A DNA stretch of 64,000 nucleotides from Pseudomonas sp. S09G 359 (lineage in GTDB: Bacteria; Pseudomonadota; Gammaproteobacteria; Pseudomonadales; Pseudomonadaceae): contig NZ_CP025263.1 in the NCBI RefSeq assembly GCF_002843605.1, positions 4,059,501 through 4,123,500 of the forward strand, read 5' to 3'. Both the position numbers and the translations under genes were made by a program. Shown one piece after another: positions 56,397-64,000 of this stretch (positions within the stretch are counted from its first letter, which is position 1; the number at the start of each line of letters is the position of its first letter). The notes under the pieces were generated by a model that worked only from the letters and a program-made list of their open reading frames with translations, did not search any database and was not told the origin of the DNA.

Positions 56397-58214
56397 ATGG
56401 CCGAACCCTTGGCTCACGACACCCTTATCCAGGAATCCTGGCGCCGCTGCCGCGCCTTTGGCCTGGACCACCAGAGCACGCCCAGCTTCGACCAACTGCC
56501 GGCCGAGGGCATCAGCCAGTTGCTGGAAAGCCAGCATTCCCTGGTGCAGACCACCCATCAGGAAGTGCTGCCCTACTACGAAAACATCCTGAGCAATTCC
56601 AACTGCCTGATCATGCTGGCCGACAACCAGGGCCAGGTGCTGACCAGTTGGGGCACCCAGCGCTTTATCGACCCCAAGCTGGCCCGGGGTTTCAGCGCCG
56701 GCGCCAGCTGGATGGAGCGCGCCAGCGGCACCAATGCCATCGGCACCGCGCTGGCCTGTGCCCAGGCGGTGCACATCGAACATGACGAACATTTTCTCAA
56801 GGCCAACCGTTTCATGACCGGCTCCGCGGCACCGATCTTCGATGCCCAGCGCGAGATCATCGCCGTGCTGGATGTGTCCAGCGACAGCTACCTGCCGCCC
56901 TCCCACACCCTGGGCATGGTCAAGATGATGAGCCAGACCGTGGAGAACCGGCTGATCCTCAACCTGTTTCGCGGTGAGCACTTCCAACTGACCTTCAACA
57001 CCGGCCTGAGCAACCTCGACAGCCAATGGGCCGGCCTGCTGATTTTTGACGACAGCGGCCAGGTGCTCTCGGCCAACCGCCGCGCCGACAACCTGCTGGG
57101 CATCAGTTTGTCGCGGGTGATGATCGACAGTTTGTTCAAGGTCTCGCTGCTGGAGTTGCTCAACCAACCCGAAGGGCTGCCCTTTTCACTGCAGGCGGCA
57201 GGACGTAATCGCTTCCAGTGCTTGCTCAAACGGCCGAAACAGATGCCGGTGCAGGCGCGCGTATTCAGCGAGCCGGTCGCGCCAAAACCAGCCGCGATTG
57301 GCCTGACGACCTTGCACTTTGGCGATGTTCGCGTGGAAAAAGCCGTGCGCCAGGCCGAACGTTTGCTGGAAAAGGACATCCCGCTGTTGATTCATGGCGA
57401 AACCGGCGTGGGCAAGGAGGTGTTCGTCAAAGCCCTGCACAGCGCCAGTTCCCGAAGCCGGCAGGCATTTATCGCGGTGAACTGTGCGGCGATTCCCGCT
57501 GAGCTGGTGGAATCGGAACTGTTCGGCTACGAAAAAGGCGCGTTCACCGGCGCCAATCAGAAAGGCAGCATCGGCCTGATCCGCAAGGCGGATAAAGGCA
57601 CGCTGTTTCTCGATGAAATCGGTGATATGCCCCTGCCAACCCAGGCGCGACTATTGCGTGTGTTGCAGGAGCGTTGCGTGCAGCCGGTAGGCAGCAGCGA
57701 GTTATTCCCGGTGGATTTGCGGATTATTTCGGCCACCAACCGGGCGCTGCGCGAGCTGGTGCAGGCCGGGCGTTTTCGTGAGGACCTTTACTACCGCATC
57801 GGCGGCCTGACGCTCGAACTGCCGCCGTTGCGCGAGCGGACCGACAAGCAGGCGCTGTTCCAGCAACTGTGGCAGCAGCACCGCGAGCCGACCCAATGGG
57901 CCGGGCTGAGCGCCGAGGTGCTGGCGCTGTTCGAGCAGCACCCGTGGCCGGGCAATTTGCGTCAGGTCAGCAGTGTGTTGCAGGTGGCCCTGGCGATGGC
58001 CGAGGAACAACCGATCCGCGCAGAGCATCTGCCGGATGATTTCTTTGTGGATCTGAACGTGGCGCCACCCTTGCCCGCCAGCGAGTATCTGGACGACAGC
58101 ATCGACCTGACTCAGCGTCTGAAAGCGGCCGGCGGGAATATTTCCCACCTGGCGCGGGAGCTGGGGGTGAGCCGCAATACCCTCTACAAGCGCCTGCGCC
58201 AGAACGAAACCTAG
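56397..58214 (+). CDS. Sigma-54-dependent activator, AcoR type, likely regulator of glycerol import
   Basis: 605 residues. N-terminal GAF-like sensor (ASWMERASGTNAIGTALACA; TGSAAPIFDAQREIIAVLDV), a PAS-like part (GLLIFDDSGQVLSANRRADN), the AAA+ domain with Walker A HGETGVGKE, the sigma-54 contact loop YEKGAFTGANQKG, Walker B GTLFLDEIGDM, and a C-terminal Fis helix-turn-helix (GGNISHLARELGVSRNTLYK). ATG 56397 chosen because upstream codons come from a REP sequence. Its stop overlaps that of the convergent fecR-type gene in CTAG. Confidence 0.92.
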   Translation: MAEPLAHDTLIQESWRRCRAFGLDHQSTPSFDQLPAEGISQLLESQHSLVQTTHQEVLPYYENILSNSNCLIMLADNQGQVLTSWGTQRFIDPKLARGFSAGASWMERASGTNAIGTALACAQAVHIEHDEHFLKANRFMTGSAAPIFDAQREIIAVLDVSSDSYLPPSHTLGMVKMMSQTVENRLILNLFRGEHFQLTFNTGLSNLDSQWAGLLIFDDSGQVLSANRRADNLLGISLSRVMIDSLFKVSLLELLNQPEGLPFSLQAAGRNRFQCLLKRPKQMPVQARVFSEPVAPKPAAIGLTTLHFGDVRVEKAVRQAERLLEKDIPLLIHGETGVGKEVFVKALHSASSRSRQAFIAVNCAAIPAELVESELFGYEKGAFTGANQKGSIGLIRKADKGTLFLDEIGDMPLPTQARLLRVLQERCVQPVGSSELFPVDLRIISATNRALRELVQAGRFREDLYYRIGGLTLELPPLRERTDKQALFQQLWQQHREPTQWAGLSAEVLALFEQHPWPGNLRQVSSVLQVALAMAEEQPIRAEHLPDDFFVDLNVAPPLPASEYLDDSIDLTQRLKAAGGNISHLARELGVSRNTLYKRLRQNET

Positions 58215-59143
58215 CGCGGCTTGACCACCACCAGCAAGTCGGTGAAGTACTCCACCTGAATCGGCAGGTTATCCGCCAGGGTCGCCAGCGCCGCCGCCGT
58301 GTCATCGAGTTTGAATACACCGGACACCCGCAGGTTTTGCAGGGCCTGGGGGTCGAAGCGCACCAGGCCGTGGCGATAGCTGGCCAGGGTTTGCAGCACC
58401 TCGCTCAGGGGTTGGTCATCGACTTTGAGCAGGCCGCGCGTCCACGCATCCGGGTCGGAATTGCCCGTGGCCTGCGCAGGTGTGGCATGGCCATGCGCGA
58501 GGATCGAGCGCTGGCCGGCCGTCACCTTGACCCCGGCCTCGTTGTCGCCTTTAACGGCCACCGTGGACTCGATCACCGTCACCAGCGTGGTGCCGTCCGC
58601 CGCACGTTTGACCATATAGCGCGTGCCCAAGGCGGTGGCGGTGCCTTGATCGGTGCGCACCACGAACGGCCGTTGCGCATCCTTGGCCACCTCCACCCAC
58701 AGCTCGCCTTGCAGCAACTCGATAACACGCTGGTGGCCGTCGAATTTCACGTCCACCGCCGAGTTGCTGTTGAGCTGCAATTGGCTGCCGTCTTCGAGGG
58801 CGACCTGGCGGCGTTCACCGACGCCGGTGCGTTGGTCGGCCATCCACACGGGCAACTGCGACAACCCCAGCCAGCCACACAGCAACACACCGAGTACCCC
58901 CACCACCGGCACGGTGCGCGAGCGTTGCGGGGCAAACGCGCGGTTCAGGGCGATGCGTGCCGGTTGCGCGGGCAAGGTGTCGAGGCTGCCCCACAGCGAA
59001 CGCATGCGCTCGATGGCCACGGCGTGACGCGGGTCGGCCTGGCACCAGGCGTTGAAGGCACGGCGCTCGGCGTCGCTGACGTCTTCGTCGTGCAGGCGTG
59101 TCAGCCAATTCGCCGCTTGCTGGATGATCTGTTCGGAGTTCAT
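58211..59143 (-). CDS. FecR-type anti-sigma factor/sigma regulator
   Basis: 310 residues. N-terminal cytoplasmic DUF4880 region (AANWLTRLHDEDVSDAERRA, FNAWCQADPRHAVAIERM), one membrane segment (VVGVLGVLLCGWLGLSQLPV), the FecR domain (RQVALEDGSQLQLNSNSAVD; VIELLQGELWVEVAKDAQRP) and a C-terminal STN-like end (DDQPLSEVLQTLASYRHGLV). ATGA overlap with the sigma gene. It should carry a surface signal from a TonB receptor to the sigma factor. Confidence 0.92.
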   Translation of the reverse strand: MNSEQIIQQAANWLTRLHDEDVSDAERRAFNAWCQADPRHAVAIERMRSLWGSLDTLPAQPARIALNRAFAPQRSRTVPVVGVLGVLLCGWLGLSQLPVWMADQRTGVGERRQVALEDGSQLQLNSNSAVDVKFDGHQRVIELLQGELWVEVAKDAQRPFVVRTDQGTATALGTRYMVKRAADGTTLVTVIESTVAVKGDNEAGVKVTAGQRSILAHGHATPAQATGNSDPDAWTRGLLKVDDQPLSEVLQTLASYRHGLVRFDPQALQNLRVSGVFKLDDTAAALATLADNLPIQVEYFTDLLVVVKPR

Positions 59144-59682
59144 GCCAGCGGATCAGCCCCATGCAAGCTGTGGTAGCAATGCACCAGCGCGCTGGAAATA
59201 TAGTTTTTGACACTGCTGGAAGACACGTCCAGGCGGGTGGCGATTTCGCTGTAGGTCAGCCCGTCGAGGCGGCTCAGCAGGAAGGCTTCACGGGCTTTGG
59301 CCGGCAGGCCGGCGAGCATCTCGGCGATGCGTTCCAGGGCTTGCAGCGCCACATGGATCGCGGCGGGGTCGGGCATGCCGGCGTCTTCGGACTGGATCAC
59401 CAGCGCTTCCATGTAGGCCTTTTCGATGCGTCGACGGCGGGCGCCATCGATCAACAGGCGCCCCGCCGTGGTCGCCAGAAATGCCCGGGGCTCCTTGATA
59501 TGTTGCGGCTCGGCCAACATCAGGACGCGGATAAACGCGTCGTGGGCCAGGTCGGCGGCATGTTGGGAACAGCCGAGTTTTTTGCGCAGCCAGTTGTGCA
59601 ACCAGCCGTGGTGCTCGCTATACATCGCCGTAAGGGTCTGTTGACGGACTGAATCGCCCAGCGCGGCCGGAATATCATGCAT
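59140..59682 (-). CDS. ECF sigma factor, FecI type (iron starvation group)
   Basis: 180 residues. Region 2 (LRKKLGCSQHAADLAHDAFI, RVLML) and region 4 (LPAKAREAFLLSRLDGLTYS, EIATRLDVSSSSVKNYI) match FecI/PvdS-like factors. ATG 59682 is preferred; the frame could also start at a TTG two codons upstream. Cotranscribed with fecR-type gene; the TonB receptor gene lies upstream on the same strand beyond a 314-base repeat-filled gap. Confidence 0.92.
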   Translation of the reverse strand: MHDIPAALGDSVRQQTLTAMYSEHHGWLHNWLRKKLGCSQHAADLAHDAFIRVLMLAEPQHIKEPRAFLATTAGRLLIDGARRRRIEKAYMEALVIQSEDAGMPDPAAIHVALQALERIAEMLAGLPAKAREAFLLSRLDGLTYSEIATRLDVSSSSVKNYISSALVHCYHSLHGADPLA

Positions 59683-59772
59683 GCGCAAAAACTTCTCAAA
59701 TGGGAAATATTACCAATTGCGCGAACAATGCCAGTAAATCGATTCGGGGGCAAGGGCCTTCCACGATTGCCC

Positions 59773-59906
59773 TTGTGGCGAGCGGGCTTGCCCGCGTTGG
59801 GCTGCGAAGCGGCCCCAGTATGGCGAAATGCAGTGTGCCAGGCCCTCATCAGTGCCTGGTTTTGGGGCTGCTGCGCAGCCCAACGCGGGCAAGCCCGCTC
59901 GCCACA
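59773..59906. repeat. Long intergenic inverted repeat, copy 4
   Basis: Arms TGTGGCGAGCGGGCTTGCCC, GCGTTGGGCTGCGAAGCGGCCCC and reverse complement, in the gap 59683-59996 between the TonB receptor and sigma genes. With the short array after it, it accounts for most of that gap; the sigma promoter should lie in 59683-59772. Confidence 0.88.
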
Positions 59907-59977
59907 AAAAAGCCACTCTCCCCAAAAAAAGCCACTTTCCCCAAAAAAATCCGCTTTCCCCAAAAAAGCCGCTTGCG
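59906..59977. repeat. Tandem array of ~20-base A-rich units
   Basis: Four units of the form CCCCAAAAAAAGCCACTTT follow the repeat arm directly. As at copies 2 and 3, a tandem array borders the inverted repeat, and the units again start from the CCACAAAA-type end. Confidence 0.82.
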
Positions 59978-59996
59978 TTTGGGAGCCAGTGTGCCC

Positions 59997-62108
59997 TCAG
60001 CGCCAGCTCCACGACACACCCGTGTAGATGCCCCGCCCATCCGCCGGGGTCGAGCGCGCCGCGTCCAGGCCCTTGTCGTCGTAGACCGGGGTCACGGTGT
60101 TAGCGTAGCGGCGGTTGGTGAGGTTGCGCAGGTCGACCCAGGCTTGCCAGTCCTGTTTTGGCGCGTCGTAACCAAAGGTTGCGCCGAGGGTGGTGTAGGA
60201 CGCGGCGTAGTAGGAGTTGGCATAGTCCACCGCCACACGTGACGAATACTCGGTGTTGAGGCTGGTGTAGAGGCCCGTCGGGTGGCTGTAGCGCAGTTGC
60301 GCTTGGTAGTAGTGCTTGGGGATGCCCGGCAAGGTGTTGTCACCGAAACGGTCGTCGTCGCGGTAATGGAAGTCGCTGAAGGTGTAGGCCTGGCGCAAGG
60401 CGAGCTTGCCGTTGCCGGCGCCGTCCCACAGCGGGCTGAGCAGGCTCAGTTCCACGCCTTGGTGCACGGTGGGGCTGGCATTCGATTCAGCGACGATGGC
60501 ATTGCTGGTCGAGGTCTGCGCTTGGGTTTCCACGGTGAGCAATTCGTGGCGCACTTCGGAGCGGTACAGCGCCAGGTCCCACTGGCCGAGCCATGCCTCG
60601 CCGCGGCCGCCGATTTCCAGGGTGGTGGCGGTCTGGTTTTTCAGGCTCACGCCTTCACGCGCCAGGCCTGTCGCCGCGCCGCTGGTGAAGTACTTGTTGG
60701 AACCCCAGATCATCGACCACGCGTGCGGCGGCTCGACCGAGCGGCTCAGGTTGCCGTACACCTGCAATTGCGGGTTGAAGTCGTAGCGTAGGCCGATGCG
60801 TGGCGCGTAGTCCCAGTCGTGCTGGCTAAGCGGCGCCTGGCCTTCGGGGTAGGTCACCTGGGTTTCGCGGCGGGTGTAGATCGCGGCCAGGCCGGTGGTC
60901 AGCCACAGATCCGGCACCAGTTCCAGGTCGTTGCCGATATGCAGCACGGTGTCGGAGCCCAAGTAGCTGTAGTCGCGGGTCTTGGTGCCGGGTGCATAGG
61001 TGGCGGTATTGCCGGCAGGCGTGCGTACATATTCCGACGCGCCATTGTTGGGCATCGCCTGGGTGGTGCGCAGGCCGAGCGTGGTTTTACTGTCGTGGCC
61101 GAACAGCGTGTCCTGGCGGATGTAATTCAGGCTGCTGCTGATGTCGGTGTAAGCCACCTTGAGACGGTTGGTGCCTTCGCGCAGGTCCATCGGGTAATCG
61201 TGATAGGCCAGCCCGACTTCAAGGCGCGAACTGTCGTCCAGCTGCAAGGTGGTTTTGTTGGCGATCCAGGTGGAGCCCGGTTGCAGGCGCTTGGAGTCGC
61301 GGGCGGCGTTGAGGCTGTTGGCGGCACGCGGGTCGTGGCTGATCTGCGCGCGGGTGAGCTTGCCGGGGGTGTCGTTGGTGGTTTCTCGGTAACGGAAGTA
61401 AAAACGGGTTTCCAGGTCCGGGTTGAAGCGGTAGCCGAAGTTGGCCGCCACGCCTTTGCCGGTGGCGGCGCTCTGGCGCTGATAACCGTCGGATTGCGAG
61501 TCGGTGAGGCTGATGTAGTAGTCTGCATCGCCCAGCACCTGGCCCGAGCTGATCTCGCGCTGGGCATAACCGCGGCTGCCCGTTTCATAGCGCAGTTGCA
61601 GCTTAGGCGCATCAAAGCCGGTATGCGTCACGTAGTTGACCGAACCGCCCAGGGCCAGCGCGCCCTGATCAAAGCCGTTGGCGCCGCGCAACACCTCGAC
61701 ACGGCTTTGCCACAACGGATCCTTGAGTTCGTAAGGCGTGCCGCCGGGGCCGGTGAGCGGCAGGCCGTCGAACATTTCATACAGCCCGGAGGCATGGGAA
61801 CCCGGGCTGCGGTTCAGGCCCGAACCGCGAATCGAGAGTTTCACCCCTTCATTATTCGCCGCCTTGGCGTACACCCCGGCCTGGTACTTGAACACGTCTT
61901 CGTTGCTGCTCACCCGCCCCTGCTGCACGCTGCTCATGTCGATGAAATTGCTGGCGCCGGGGACGCTCTGGAGCTGTGCCTGGGCCACTTCGCCGGCGCT
62001 GGCTTCGCTGGTGGTGACTTCGACCGGCGCCAATTGCAGGTCTTCGGCATGCACCAGTGAGCTTAACGTCAGGGCGGCAAACAGGAATGGAGGATGGCGC
62101 AGCAGCAT
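59997..62108 (-). CDS. TonB-dependent outer-membrane receptor lacking a signalling domain
   Basis: 703 residues. Signal peptide MLLRHPPFLFAALTLSSLVH, then DLQLAPVEVTTSEASAGE (TonB-box region), plug (DVFKYQAGVYAKAANNEGVK; LSIRGSGLNRSPGSHASGLY; RVEVLRGANGFDQGALALGG; SVNYVT) and a beta barrel ending GRGIYTGVSWSWR. The plug starts about 35 residues after the signal, leaving no room for the ~80-residue STN domain of transducers. GAAGGA lies nine bases before ATG 62108. Probably takes up a ferric siderophore or other iron chelate; ligand unknown. Confidence 0.92.
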   Translation of the reverse strand: MLLRHPPFLFAALTLSSLVHAEDLQLAPVEVTTSEASAGEVAQAQLQSVPGASNFIDMSSVQQGRVSSNEDVFKYQAGVYAKAANNEGVKLSIRGSGLNRSPGSHASGLYEMFDGLPLTGPGGTPYELKDPLWQSRVEVLRGANGFDQGALALGGSVNYVTHTGFDAPKLQLRYETGSRGYAQREISSGQVLGDADYYISLTDSQSDGYQRQSAATGKGVAANFGYRFNPDLETRFYFRYRETTNDTPGKLTRAQISHDPRAANSLNAARDSKRLQPGSTWIANKTTLQLDDSSRLEVGLAYHDYPMDLREGTNRLKVAYTDISSSLNYIRQDTLFGHDSKTTLGLRTTQAMPNNGASEYVRTPAGNTATYAPGTKTRDYSYLGSDTVLHIGNDLELVPDLWLTTGLAAIYTRRETQVTYPEGQAPLSQHDWDYAPRIGLRYDFNPQLQVYGNLSRSVEPPHAWSMIWGSNKYFTSGAATGLAREGVSLKNQTATTLEIGGRGEAWLGQWDLALYRSEVRHELLTVETQAQTSTSNAIVAESNASPTVHQGVELSLLSPLWDGAGNGKLALRQAYTFSDFHYRDDDRFGDNTLPGIPKHYYQAQLRYSHPTGLYTSLNTEYSSRVAVDYANSYYAASYTTLGATFGYDAPKQDWQAWVDLRNLTNRRYANTVTPVYDDKGLDAARSTPADGRGIYTGVSWSWR

Positions 62109-62132
62109 GGGGTGGGTCCTTCGAATTCGGGG

Positions 62133-62156
62133 GCGTGCCAGGCCGGCCTGGCACGC
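62133..62156 (-). promoter_or_regulatory. Perfect 24-base palindrome in the receptor leader
   Basis: GCGTGCCAGGCC joined to GGCCTGGCACGC, about 25-48 bases upstream of the receptor start and ten bases upstream of its ribosome-binding site. In RNA it would form a long, loop-poor hairpin; in DNA it could be a dimeric operator. Confidence 0.7.
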
Positions 62157-62161
62157 GAACA

Positions 62162-62223
62162 GTGATGGGAAGACAGGCACGCTCGCCGGGTCACTCCTTA
62201 TTAACGGACCAGACCCTTCCCAC
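62162..62223 (-). promoter_or_regulatory. Possible structured RNA leader upstream of the receptor gene
   Basis: On the minus strand GTGGGAAG pairs with a downstream CTTCCCATCAC, and nested inside GGGTC pairs with GACCC; the enclosed loop contains CGTTAATAAGGAG. It does not match the cobalamin or TPP riboswitch patterns I know. It may simply be chance pairing. Confidence 0.35.
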
Positions 62224-62348
62224 AACAGCGTCGGACCGAATTGATTTTGCTAAGTCCAAAATCGCATGACCACATGCAAACTCAGTATTTAAAGAAATAA
62301 CCGCCACGCATTACTGTAGAGCCACTGAACACCCATGAGAGCGCCACC

Positions 62349-62507
62349 ATGCAAACATCCGCCACCGTCATCGACTTCACGCTCCACCGCAAACGCCGCC
62401 AGGCACGTGCTGCGGCCGAGCTGATGTGGGCGATGTACGCGGCGCGTGCCGGGCTTGCGGTGTTTGCCGCCCAGGCTGCTCTGTCCAGCGATACCCGCCG
62501 GGCGTAA
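62349..62507 (+). CDS. Small ORF upstream of the XRE-cupin regulator
   Basis: 52 residues: MQTSATVIDFTLHRKRRQAR, then AAAELMWAMYAARAGLAVFA and AQAALSSDTRRA. Third-position G/C bias is strong and its stop is five bases before the regulator start, so it is probably co-translated. The N-terminal half is basic, the C-terminal half an alanine-rich hydrophobic helix. GAGAG precedes the ATG. Function unknown. Confidence 0.62.
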   Translation: MQTSATVIDFTLHRKRRQARAAAELMWAMYAARAGLAVFAAQAALSSDTRRA

Positions 62508-62512
62508 CGCCG

Positions 62513-63139
62513 ATGAACTTTCTACACGTGCTCCCGGAACCGCCCGACCCGCTGCCCAAACCCAATACCGACGATGACGTGATCGGCTTGTGCGTCGCGC
62601 ACAACCTGCAACGCCTGCGCAGTAAGCGCCACCTTTCACTCGATGGCCTCGCGCGCGCCTGCGGTGTGAGCCGTGCGATGCTGGCGCAGATCGAGTCCGG
62701 GCGCAGCGTGCCGTCGATCAAGGTGCTGTGCAAGATTGCCAAAGGCTTGAAGGTGTCGGTGGCGGCGTTCCTGGAGGATCGCGCATTTGAAGGGGTGGAG
62801 GTGCTGCCGGCGCAACAGAGCAAGCGCCTGGTGAGTGCCGATGGCGCGTTTATCAGCCGTGCGTTGTTTCCCTACGATACCGCGCGCCAATCCGAATTCT
62901 ACGAGATCCGCCTGCGCGCACTGGGCGAGGAAGTTTCCGCAGGCCATGGCCCCGGCATCCAGGAAAACCTAGTGGTGGCCCAGGGTGTCCTGGAGGTCAG
63001 TGTCAACGAGGAGCGCTACCTGCTCTCCACCGGTGACTCGATTCTGTTCTACGCCGACCAGCCCCACCGCTACCGCAACCCGGCGGACAGCGAGGCGGTG
63101 GCCTTTCTGGTGATCACCTACCCCGAACGCCTCGACTGA
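62513..63139 (+). CDS. XRE-family regulator with C-terminal cupin domain
   Basis: 208 residues. Helix-turn-helix around residues 25-80 (LRSKRHLSLDGLARACGVSR; AMLAQIESGRSVPSIKVLCK) and a cupin domain at about 110-205 (LVVAQGVLEVSVNEERYLLS; TGDSILFYADQPHRYRNPAD). Such proteins sense small metabolites or metals. The ATG at 62513 follows directly after the small ORF; an upstream in-frame start is rejected because it runs through that ORF in another frame. Strong terminator after the stop. Confidence 0.92.
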   Translation: MNFLHVLPEPPDPLPKPNTDDDVIGLCVAHNLQRLRSKRHLSLDGLARACGVSRAMLAQIESGRSVPSIKVLCKIAKGLKVSVAAFLEDRAFEGVEVLPAQQSKRLVSADGAFISRALFPYDTARQSEFYEIRLRALGEEVSAGHGPGIQENLVVAQGVLEVSVNEERYLLSTGDSILFYADQPHRYRNPADSEAVAFLVITYPERLD

Positions 63140-63144
63140 AATGC

Positions 63145-63174
63145 AAAACGCCCCGAATCATCGGGGCGTTTTTT
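63145..63174. terminator. Bidirectional rho-independent terminator
   Basis: Perfect 12-base stem AAAACGCCCCGA / TCGGGGCGTTTT with loop ATCA and T-runs on both strands. Lies between the convergent XRE-cupin gene and the Met-rich protein gene and can serve both. Confidence 0.93.
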
Positions 63175-63189
63175 ATTGCGCGGGACCTG

Positions 63190-63693
63190 TCAGCAGGTGC
63201 AGCACATCATCGGCATGCCGTTGCAGCTCATCATCATCGGCATGGCGCAGTCGTTCATCATTTTGTTCATCAGCATGCAGCAGTTGGTCATCATGGCCAT
63301 GCTCATGCCTGGCATCGGCATCATTTTGCACTGCATGCCATCCGCCTGCATCGTGCACTCCATCACGCACTTCATCATCGGCATCTGCATGCCCATCATC
63401 GGCATCATCTGCATGTTCATGCCCGACATCATCGCCATGGCCTCAGCCGACATGCACATCATCGACATGTTGGCGCACTGCATCATCATCGGCATGCCGC
63501 AGTTCATCATCATCGCCATCATTTCGGCGTTGGTCTTGAACTGAGCCATGTCCATACCGGCCGCGGGTTTCATGGTGCACATCATGGCGTCGTCGGCCAT
63601 TTCGCATTTCATGGTGGCCATCATCATCGGCATGCCCATCATCGGCATCATTGGCATGGCGGTGTTCATCGGCATCTGCATTGCATTCATCAT
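63190..63693 (-). CDS. Extremely methionine- and cysteine-rich protein of unknown function
   Basis: 167 residues by my count with 68 Met (about 41%) and 15 Cys (about 9%); also Ala, Asn, Pro, Gly, almost no aromatic residues. It begins MMNAMQMPMNTAMPMMPMMG with no signal peptide, so it should be cytoplasmic. The sequence is an internal duplication of about 84 residues: C65-x7-C73-x6-C80 is repeated exactly as C149-x7-C157-x6-C164, with NCGMPMMMQC matching DCAMPMMMSC, and PMMGMPMMM near residue 20 matching PMMGMQMPM near residue 100. Evidence it is a real gene: CGGAG eight bases before the ATG, a plausible -35/-10 upstream, a strong terminator downstream, and G/C-ending non-Met codons. Possible roles: Cu(I) or other soft-metal storage, or a sacrificial oxidant sink. 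No known family recognised. Confidence 0.85.
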   Translation of the reverse strand: MMNAMQMPMNTAMPMMPMMGMPMMMATMKCEMADDAMMCTMKPAAGMDMAQFKTNAEMMAMMMNCGMPMMMQCANMSMMCMSAEAMAMMSGMNMQMMPMMGMQMPMMKCVMECTMQADGMQCKMMPMPGMSMAMMTNCCMLMNKMMNDCAMPMMMSCNGMPMMCCTC

Positions 63694-63739
63694 GTTCGAA
63701 ACTCCGTAATCGACAGGAAATGGCTAAGTTCTGGCGCCG

Positions 63740-63767
63740 ATTCTAAAGACGCCAGGCAGCCGCGCAA
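63740..63767 (-). promoter_or_regulatory. Candidate sigma-70 promoter of the Met-rich protein gene
   Basis: On the minus strand TTGCGC, a 16-base spacer and TAGAAT lie about 47 bases upstream of the ATG at 63693. No copper (CueR-like) or other metal operator was recognised in the region. Confidence 0.5.
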
Positions 63768-64000
63768 GACGGCGGCAGAGCAGCAGGAATGGATGTTGGC
63801 AAACTAGCTTAGTCGATCAACACAGCCGCGCCGGATGCGATGGTTACGAAATAGACGTTATTGCGTTACGCCTATCTGCTTAATACCGAGAATAGACGCA
63901 ATGGATATTCGATCCTGGAATGCCGTCCAATCGGAAGGAAATAAACGATCTAACGAAAGCGGCCCAGTTGGTTATTTGCGCAATGGCAGGACGAATACGC
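63768..64000. other. Right-edge region without a supported gene
   Basis: 233 bases, AT-richer than the window average after 63840 (GTTACGAAATAGACGTTATT). A frame opens at an ATG at 63901 (MDIRSWNAVQSEGNKRSNES) and stays open to the edge, but it has no ribosome-binding site and weak codon bias, so I do not call it a gene. Confidence 0.4.

Follow-up and report, generated by a model that had tools for sequence, protein, structure and literature searches.

The window analysed here, a stretch of 64,000 nucleotides from a genome that consists of one contig of 6.77 Mb, carries on its minus strand at 63190..63693 a gene with an ATG start for a two-module protein of 167 amino acids, of which 68 are methionine and 15 are cysteine. 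The reading frame is open from 63693 to 63190 and the composition given in the initial annotation is borne out, with sulfur-carrying residues occupying 83 of 167 positions. The N-terminus (MMNAMQMPMN) contains no export signal visible on inspection. Convergent with this Met-rich gene, the plus strand encodes at 62513..63139 an XRE-cupin transcriptional regulator of 208 amino acids, in which an N-terminal HTH_3 domain (47.2 bits) and a C-terminal Cupin_2 domain (44.8 bits) both score above cut-off. Directly upstream of the regulator lies a small ORF of 52 amino acids (62349..62507, plus strand) which starts MQTSATVIDFTLHRKRR in the window and has the N-terminal sequence VIDFTLHRKRR. Divergent from the operon formed by the small ORF and the regulator, the region 58211-62225 encodes a FecI-like sigma factor, a FecR-like regulator and a TonB-dependent receptor that is weakly PqqU-like; among 107 Pseudomonas loci compared, a receptor cluster is found at 25 and a sigma-factor cluster at 22.

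Among the expression signals proposed for the Met-rich gene from the window alone, the promoter is conserved at related loci. A GGAG ribosome-binding site (63702..63705, minus strand) is seen in the window and in the upstream alignment, and it is preceded by a promoter of the form TTGCGC-N16-TAGAAT (63740..63767, minus strand) whose CTTG and TAGAATC elements are shared by more than 90% of the Pseudomonas upstream regions in the alignment. A largely conserved TGCTGCT block (63779..63785, minus strand) adjoins the -35 element on its upstream side and may be an operator. Between the convergent genes, a hairpin at 63145..63173, assigned to neither strand and with a folding energy of -22.1 kcal/mol on the Met-rich strand, is probably a terminator shared by both; neither this terminator nor the promoter appeared in the output of a simple scanner run over the locus. 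Upstream of the operon on the opposite side, the inverted repeat TATTT-N4-AAATA (62286..62299, plus strand) is a candidate autoregulatory site. As a universal operator this repeat was rejected, its exact form being present at 26 of 110 loci. A counterpart of the small ORF with about 52 amino acids precedes the regulator at 110 of 117 loci by a loose pattern that was applied without a shuffled control, and at seven of eight additional loci examined in a second class of the phylum (see below), L201 being the one where it is absent. These small proteins share a start of the VIDFxxxRxRR type, with a C-terminus that looks helical in Pseudomonas and is aromatic/proline-rich and hydrophobic in the second class.

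That the gene is a chance or non-coding ORF can be ruled out by the existence of homologues, by a median dN/dS of 0.22 (1891 pairs from 62 Pseudomonas loci) and by differences that fall mostly at third codon positions. The openness of the frame alone was not used as coding evidence, because alternative frames at these loci are frequently free of stops as well. A dN/dS near 1 had been named in the initial annotation as the value that would speak against a functional protein, and the ratio obtained from the aligned sequences instead indicates purifying selection on the Met-rich gene. Matches to the protein were found by protein search in 64 of 298 Pseudomonas genomes, the genome of the window included; of these matches, that in G279 is only a short, stop-containing remnant and that in G206 is truncated by the end of a contig. 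Conservation of the methionine and cysteine columns, also put forward for checking, was found in Pseudomonas for 13 of 15 cysteines and 42 of 68 methionines, which are near-invariant in the sense of being kept in at least 61 of 62 aligned sequences. Counted over all alignment cells, cysteine is retained in 907 of 915 and methionine in 3793 of 4073 (93%), compared with 70% for the remaining residues. The methionines of the regulator are kept in 77 of 78 cells, so the 93% retention in the Met-rich protein is not higher.

The protein contains two cysteine motifs, Cys65-x7-Cys73-x6-Cys80 and Cys149-x7-Cys157-x6-Cys164, which are offset by exactly 84 residues, as had been noticed from the sequence. 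The accompanying proposal of an 84-residue repeat stands with regard to the duplication and fails with regard to a constant register, since the halves align first in register 83 and only past a one-residue insertion in register 84. An ungapped offset of 84 lies within the range of composition shuffles, being reached by 1460 of 2000, and a gapped comparison of one half against the other scores 179 against 74.6 +/- 10.2 for shuffles (z 10.2), with none of 500 shuffles reaching it. All of 13 further two-module proteins tested gave the same 0 of 500 each, with z values from 8.2 to 16.7, the highest belonging to P0046, a two-module relative with 22% methionine. The duplication is thus no artefact of composition, because the gapped halves beat all 500 shuffles in the window protein and in 13 others.

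Together with the predicted fold, the gapped shuffle test supports the earlier view of a duplicated, structured module. An AlphaFold model of the window protein built from 42 sequences (mean pLDDT 77.5, pTM 0.67) places module 1 at residues 24-81 (63451..63624, minus strand) and module 2 at residues 108-166 (63196..63372, minus strand), each with a predicted beta-beta-alpha-beta-beta arrangement and mostly with pLDDT values of 83-91. The N-terminal Met/Pro-rich tail (residues 1-20; 63634..63693, minus strand) and the linker (residues 93-103) are modelled at values below 50. For a single-module relative, strand-strand-helix was predicted at low confidence. The helical bundle lined by methionine and cysteine that had been suggested at first is opposed by this model, which does not by itself establish a new fold; searches with the predicted structure by Foldseek and VIA-align returned matches at background level only, with no clear fold relative among them.

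A profile search recovered 135 proteins at E <=0.001, of which the best 120 were listed and the weak tail may hold matches of composition only. Among the matches listed and read, two-module relatives have 138-173 amino acids with 22-44% methionine (31 counted), and single-module relatives have about 77-157 amino acids. The module consensus is approximately M-x-C-x-M...G-M-x-C-x-M-x-P...CC...GMPMMM-x-C-x-GMPMM-x-C. In 24 single-module proteins, the N-terminal tails vary from 17 to 97 amino acids and consist of methionine to 43-60%, against 27-42% in the remainder of the protein. Two single-module proteins from Sorangium (P0043 and P0061) have Met/Pro/Gly tails which appear to have expanded through short tandem repeats. 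Neither the window protein nor ten of its relatives scored above a curated cut-off in Pfam, nor did the window protein in NCBIfam; no match to the Met-rich protein was found among PDB sequences, and none on plasmids searched with P0074 and the window protein.

The best named matches to the window protein are Pseudomonas contigs, and among the matches listed 80 of 80 loci are from Pseudomonas, with strains of the plant-associated P. protegens and P. chlororaphis represented. Beyond this genus, relatives occur in the same family (G618, G622 and G702) and in another class of the phylum, the second class, which is taken as Alphaproteobacteria because Devosia, Microvirga and Tianweitania are named as sources among the listed relatives. 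G752, G839 and G1093 can be placed together in this class since the genomes sampled for it are the same for each of them. Sorangium and Polyangium are named as well, and Myxococcota also carry single-module relatives. Profile searches gave counts that include the genomes at the centre of each search: the two-module profile matched one of 274 genomes of the window's class, its own genome, and the single-module profile matched eight of 398 genomes in the phylum (its own and two other Pseudomonas among them), two of 337 and one of 123 in two samples of the second class, and one of 111, 11 of 110 and two of seven in three families of that class. The 14 genomes and loci of the second class that were studied represent eight genera, with L191-L193 from one genus. 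Among the matches listed in the open-licence literature searched, no description was recognised of the Met-rich family or its module, of the convergent pair, or of the small ORF. The class of XRE-cupin regulators is already known, as is the notion that Met-rich proteins can act as sinks; the function of the Met-rich family is what we infer below.

In contrast to the initial statement that no partner gene is linked, the XRE-cupin regulator proves to be a near-constant neighbour. Of 62 Pseudomonas loci with the Met-rich gene that were read, 60 have the regulator within the examined stretch, and it is convergent in 60 of 60, at less than 600 bp in 57 (median gap 72) and within 1.3 kb in the other three. 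Clustering of neighbours over 107 loci, which remain from 112 after removal of five without a filtered focal ORF, gave one gene cluster directly downstream of and facing the Met-rich gene in 103, a count whose members are not all independent since two collections often supplied the same genome twice among the 112. When the 298 Pseudomonas genomes were searched for the regulator at E 1e-30, 68 genomes matched; both genes are present in 63, the Met-rich gene alone in one, the regulator alone in five and neither in 229 (Fisher p about 2e-57, uncorrected for relatedness). The exceptions have individual explanations or features. G206 and G273 are cases of contig edges, and at L039 the two genes sit at two contig ends. 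Two genomes show decay: in G183 (L165) the regulator is interrupted by an internal stop and the Met-rich search found no match, and in G279 (L164), scored as carrying both, remnants of both genes are left. The regulators of G198, G244 and G256 are only 52-53% identical. At L023 the regulator of the genome lies 6.7 kb away and still faces the Met-rich gene. In genome G149 (L174:4413-11160) about 6.7 kb lie between the two facing genes.

The pairing extends past Pseudomonas. Among the three relatives of the same family, the regulator faces the gene in two and the third ends at a contig edge. In the second class, where the relatives have a single module, the convergent pair is present in 12 of 14 stretches; L194 and L196 have no regulator inside the examined stretch, and at L179 an OsmC-like gene sits between the Met-rich gene and the regulator. 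The second-class regulators are 58-68% identical to that of L169 (63% for L170) and, where compared, 45-50% identical to that of the window. The regulator gene is thereby a near-constant partner of the Met-rich gene in two proteobacterial classes.

The closest solved relative of the regulator is 1Y9Q from Vibrio cholerae (E 1.3e-25), in which, according to passages of PMC7901475, D-methionine sits in the cupin pocket. E151 and H185 of the window regulator align with a glutamate and a histidine of 1Y9Q, and they are kept in 122 of 125 and 125 of 125 aligned homologues, some genomes being counted twice. That methionine occupies the 1Y9Q pocket does not imply that it is bound by the regulator of the window. 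A further relative at 34% identity is SutR of Escherichia coli, a regulator of sulfur utilisation by the title of a cited 2015 paper. The same passages of PMC7901475 treat XRE-cupin regulators as a metabolite-sensing class, describe those studied in P. aeruginosa as repressors binding the intergenic region adjoining their own gene, and regard them as local units that may transfer jointly between genomes.

In several lineages the pair repeatedly has genes for methionine import or for other sulfur functions next to it. At four Pseudomonas loci (L096, L105, L133 and L135), genes matching MetQ, MetN and MetI directly precede the Met-rich gene and share its strand. At L194 of the second class, MetN, MetI and MetQ genes are convergent with the Met-rich gene (MetI over its cut-off, MetN and MetQ below), and at L200 genes matching MetN, MetI and MetQ are divergent from the regulator (MetI and an NlpA lipoprotein over cut-off, MetN below). 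Many neighbour names score under curated cut-offs in this way, and those given as below cut-off are clear relatives, with the exception of a weak SfnB-like match at L170. Over their cut-offs are also an MsrB near L169, two SfnB proteins at L179, cysteine synthase A at L195, and ARD and DMSP-lyase domains at L198. Below cut-off are an OsmC-like protein at L179, YedE-like and sulfide-quinone-reductase-like proteins at L195, YedE-like, sulfurtransferase-like and YciW/peroxidase-related proteins at L170, a YciW/peroxidase-related protein at L196, an enzyme of the cystathionine-beta-synthase type at L199 and a sulfur-transferase domain at L201. The SfnB-like match at L170 means little, because all 14 genomes carry weak SfnB relatives. 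At L198:2087-9771, genes for a NifH-like protein (just below cut-off), a radical SAM protein, a 2OG-Fe(II) oxygenase, an ARD-family protein and a protein with a DMSP-lyase domain flank the pair; perhaps they form a nitrogenase-like organosulfur system.

With 13 sulfur-gene queries, matches were obtained in 10 of 14 focal second-class stretches and in none of 12 control stretches, taken from 12 of these genomes. The test is weak because the focal loci were themselves the source of the queries, and the 10 count matches of a query to its own locus. Once such self-hits are set aside, six of 14 focal stretches remain (L170, L194, L195, L197, L199 and L200), among them the near-twins L170 and L197 and cross-matches among related PLP enzymes. 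No query matched at L191, L192 or L193. Of 112 Pseudomonas loci 13 gave matches, and neither the window nor the 14 kb that continue it gave any. Copy counts over whole genomes offer a fairer test than stretch controls. The 14 second-class genomes hold nine MetI copies in all (E 1e-25), and the sole copies of G1440 and G1424 lie about 1.1 and about 2.7 kb from the Met-rich gene, with one of the two copies of G1433 about 9 kb away. Under random placement, at least two MetI genes within 3 kb would have a Poisson P of 6.6e-5, and SfnB over its cut-off, found in one of the 14 genomes, has two copies which start 0.6 and 3.4 kb away; both statistics serve as guides only because the families were chosen post hoc and the genomes are related.

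A methionine link of the pair is well supported, and the recurrence of the link to import in upstream same-strand, convergent and divergent layouts argues for methionine supply as its common denominator. The best explanation, to which we give a probability of roughly 0.45, is that the Met-rich protein is a reserve of sulfur amino acids under a methionine-responsive repressor, and that its gene is derepressed when methionine is plentiful. The small ORF, the XRE-cupin repressor and the convergent Met/Cys-rich effector gene would together form a homeostasis module, in which the regulator would act as repressor of the Met-rich gene and sense methionine or a close relative through its cupin domain. 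With methionine in plentiful supply, repression would cease, and the excess of methionine and cysteine would be deposited in a protein that is compact, inert and cytoplasmic; when sulfur runs short, synthesis of the store would stop and both amino acids could be regained via proteolysis. The folded modules would hold the stored material soluble and out of the way, and the variable-length Met-rich tails may provide extra capacity. These tails retain their methionine, which argues that sulfur content itself is selected; on this and on the neighbouring genes we infer the storage role. The fuller claim of a dedicated, ribosomally synthesised reserve protein for methionine and cysteine, built from a novel beta-beta-alpha-beta-beta module and governed by its own methionine-sensing XRE-cupin repressor in both Pseudomonas and the second class, is a tentative one that falls noticeably short of even odds.

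Several observations speak against a store. A mere reserve would be expected to evolve freely, yet only eight of 915 cysteine cells have lost their cysteine and the predicted fold is constrained, which fits a site-specific function too. Methionine retention in the aligned sequences, at 93%, is no higher than the 77 of 78 of the regulator. The regulator is missing from the examined stretches of L194 and L196, and L191-L193 gave no sulfur-gene match. Most Pseudomonas copies have no sulfur genes nearby, and the gene pair of the window is adjoined by FecI, FecR and a TonB receptor.

Other functions for so much sulfur were considered. The protein could be a cytoplasmic oxidant sink, whose surface methionines and cysteines would react with hypochlorite, peroxide or chloramines and be restored by methionine sulfoxide reductases, and whose cupin regulator would sense methionine sulfoxide or another oxidised thioether. 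The composition would suit this role, a periplasmic Met-rich peptide (MrpX, BcrX) is established as a hypochlorite sink, and MsrB over its cut-off near L169 and OsmC-like or peroxidase-related genes under family cut-offs near L179, L170 and L196 point the same way. On the other hand, an MsrB homologue is present in just one of 14 second-class stretches, methionine-transporter and other sulfur genes are commoner than MsrB, the scanned neighbours included no recognisable oxidant-sensing regulator, and MsrP/MsrQ (YedYZ) were found neither among 40 second-class neighbour proteins scanned singly nor among three neighbours in the window, so that this role appears unlikely without being far-fetched.

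Somewhat more doubtful is a soft-metal buffer, in which the conserved methionines and cysteines of the beta-beta-alpha-beta-beta scaffold would coordinate Cu(I), Ag(I) or Hg(II) for storage or detoxification in the cytoplasm. The 13 near-invariant cysteines in Pseudomonas and the constrained predicted fold speak for such sites, and siderophore-type TonB receptors lie near some loci (among the 25 of 331 neighbour families listed). Against this, no copper or mercury genes were recognised in the part of the neighbours that was scanned, the partner regulator belongs to what passages of PMC7901475 describe as a metabolite-sensing class, and Met-rich tails of variable length are unlike defined sites. 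A role as a carrier or protein-protein module in organosulfur metabolism, for example of a thiol or methylthio intermediate and with methionine richness that is chemical and not a store, has family matches to organosulfur or sulfide chemistry near L170, L179, L195 and L198 in its favour (several below cut-off) and is very improbable, as neighbours vary among loci so that no single substrate fits and no catalytic motif is apparent on inspection.

If the sulfur-amino-acid reserve is correct, it would account for why a cell would afford a protein with 41% methionine and would provide a subfamily of XRE-cupins with a likely ligand. Should the protein instead prove to be an oxidant sink or a metal buffer, the family would still be undescribed and its partner regulator identified, which makes the inducer directly testable. 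Bacteria store carbon, phosphate and nitrogen as polymers. To our knowledge no protein serves as a store of reduced sulfur amino acids, and none appeared among the matches listed in the literature searched. A functional analogue of a sulfur reserve would be the methionine-rich seed storage proteins of plants (2S albumins and zeins), which belong to other organisms with another control and for which no sequence relationship is claimed.

Csp copper-storage proteins are four-helix bundles lined with cysteine. They resemble the window protein in the number of sulfur ligands placed in a small protein and differ from it in that the latter is predicted to be alpha/beta and is dominated by methionine. 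MrpX and BcrX, compared by description only, are similarly small, Met-rich and locally regulated. They are periplasmic, and their genetic links are to a methionine sulfoxide reductase system of the periplasm and to an ECF sigma/anti-sigma pair, whereas the window protein has no export signal on inspection, conserved cysteines, a predicted fold that is duplicated, and a partner of the XRE-cupin class. This partner shares its domains with ErfA, PsdR, PauR, E. coli SutR and V. cholerae 1Y9Q, and its adjacency to the Met-rich gene matches the rule of local repression stated for XRE-cupins in passages of PMC7901475. In those passages the neighbours of known XRE-cupins are mostly enzymes and transporters, while here the near-constant neighbour is a facing gene for a Met/Cys-rich protein.
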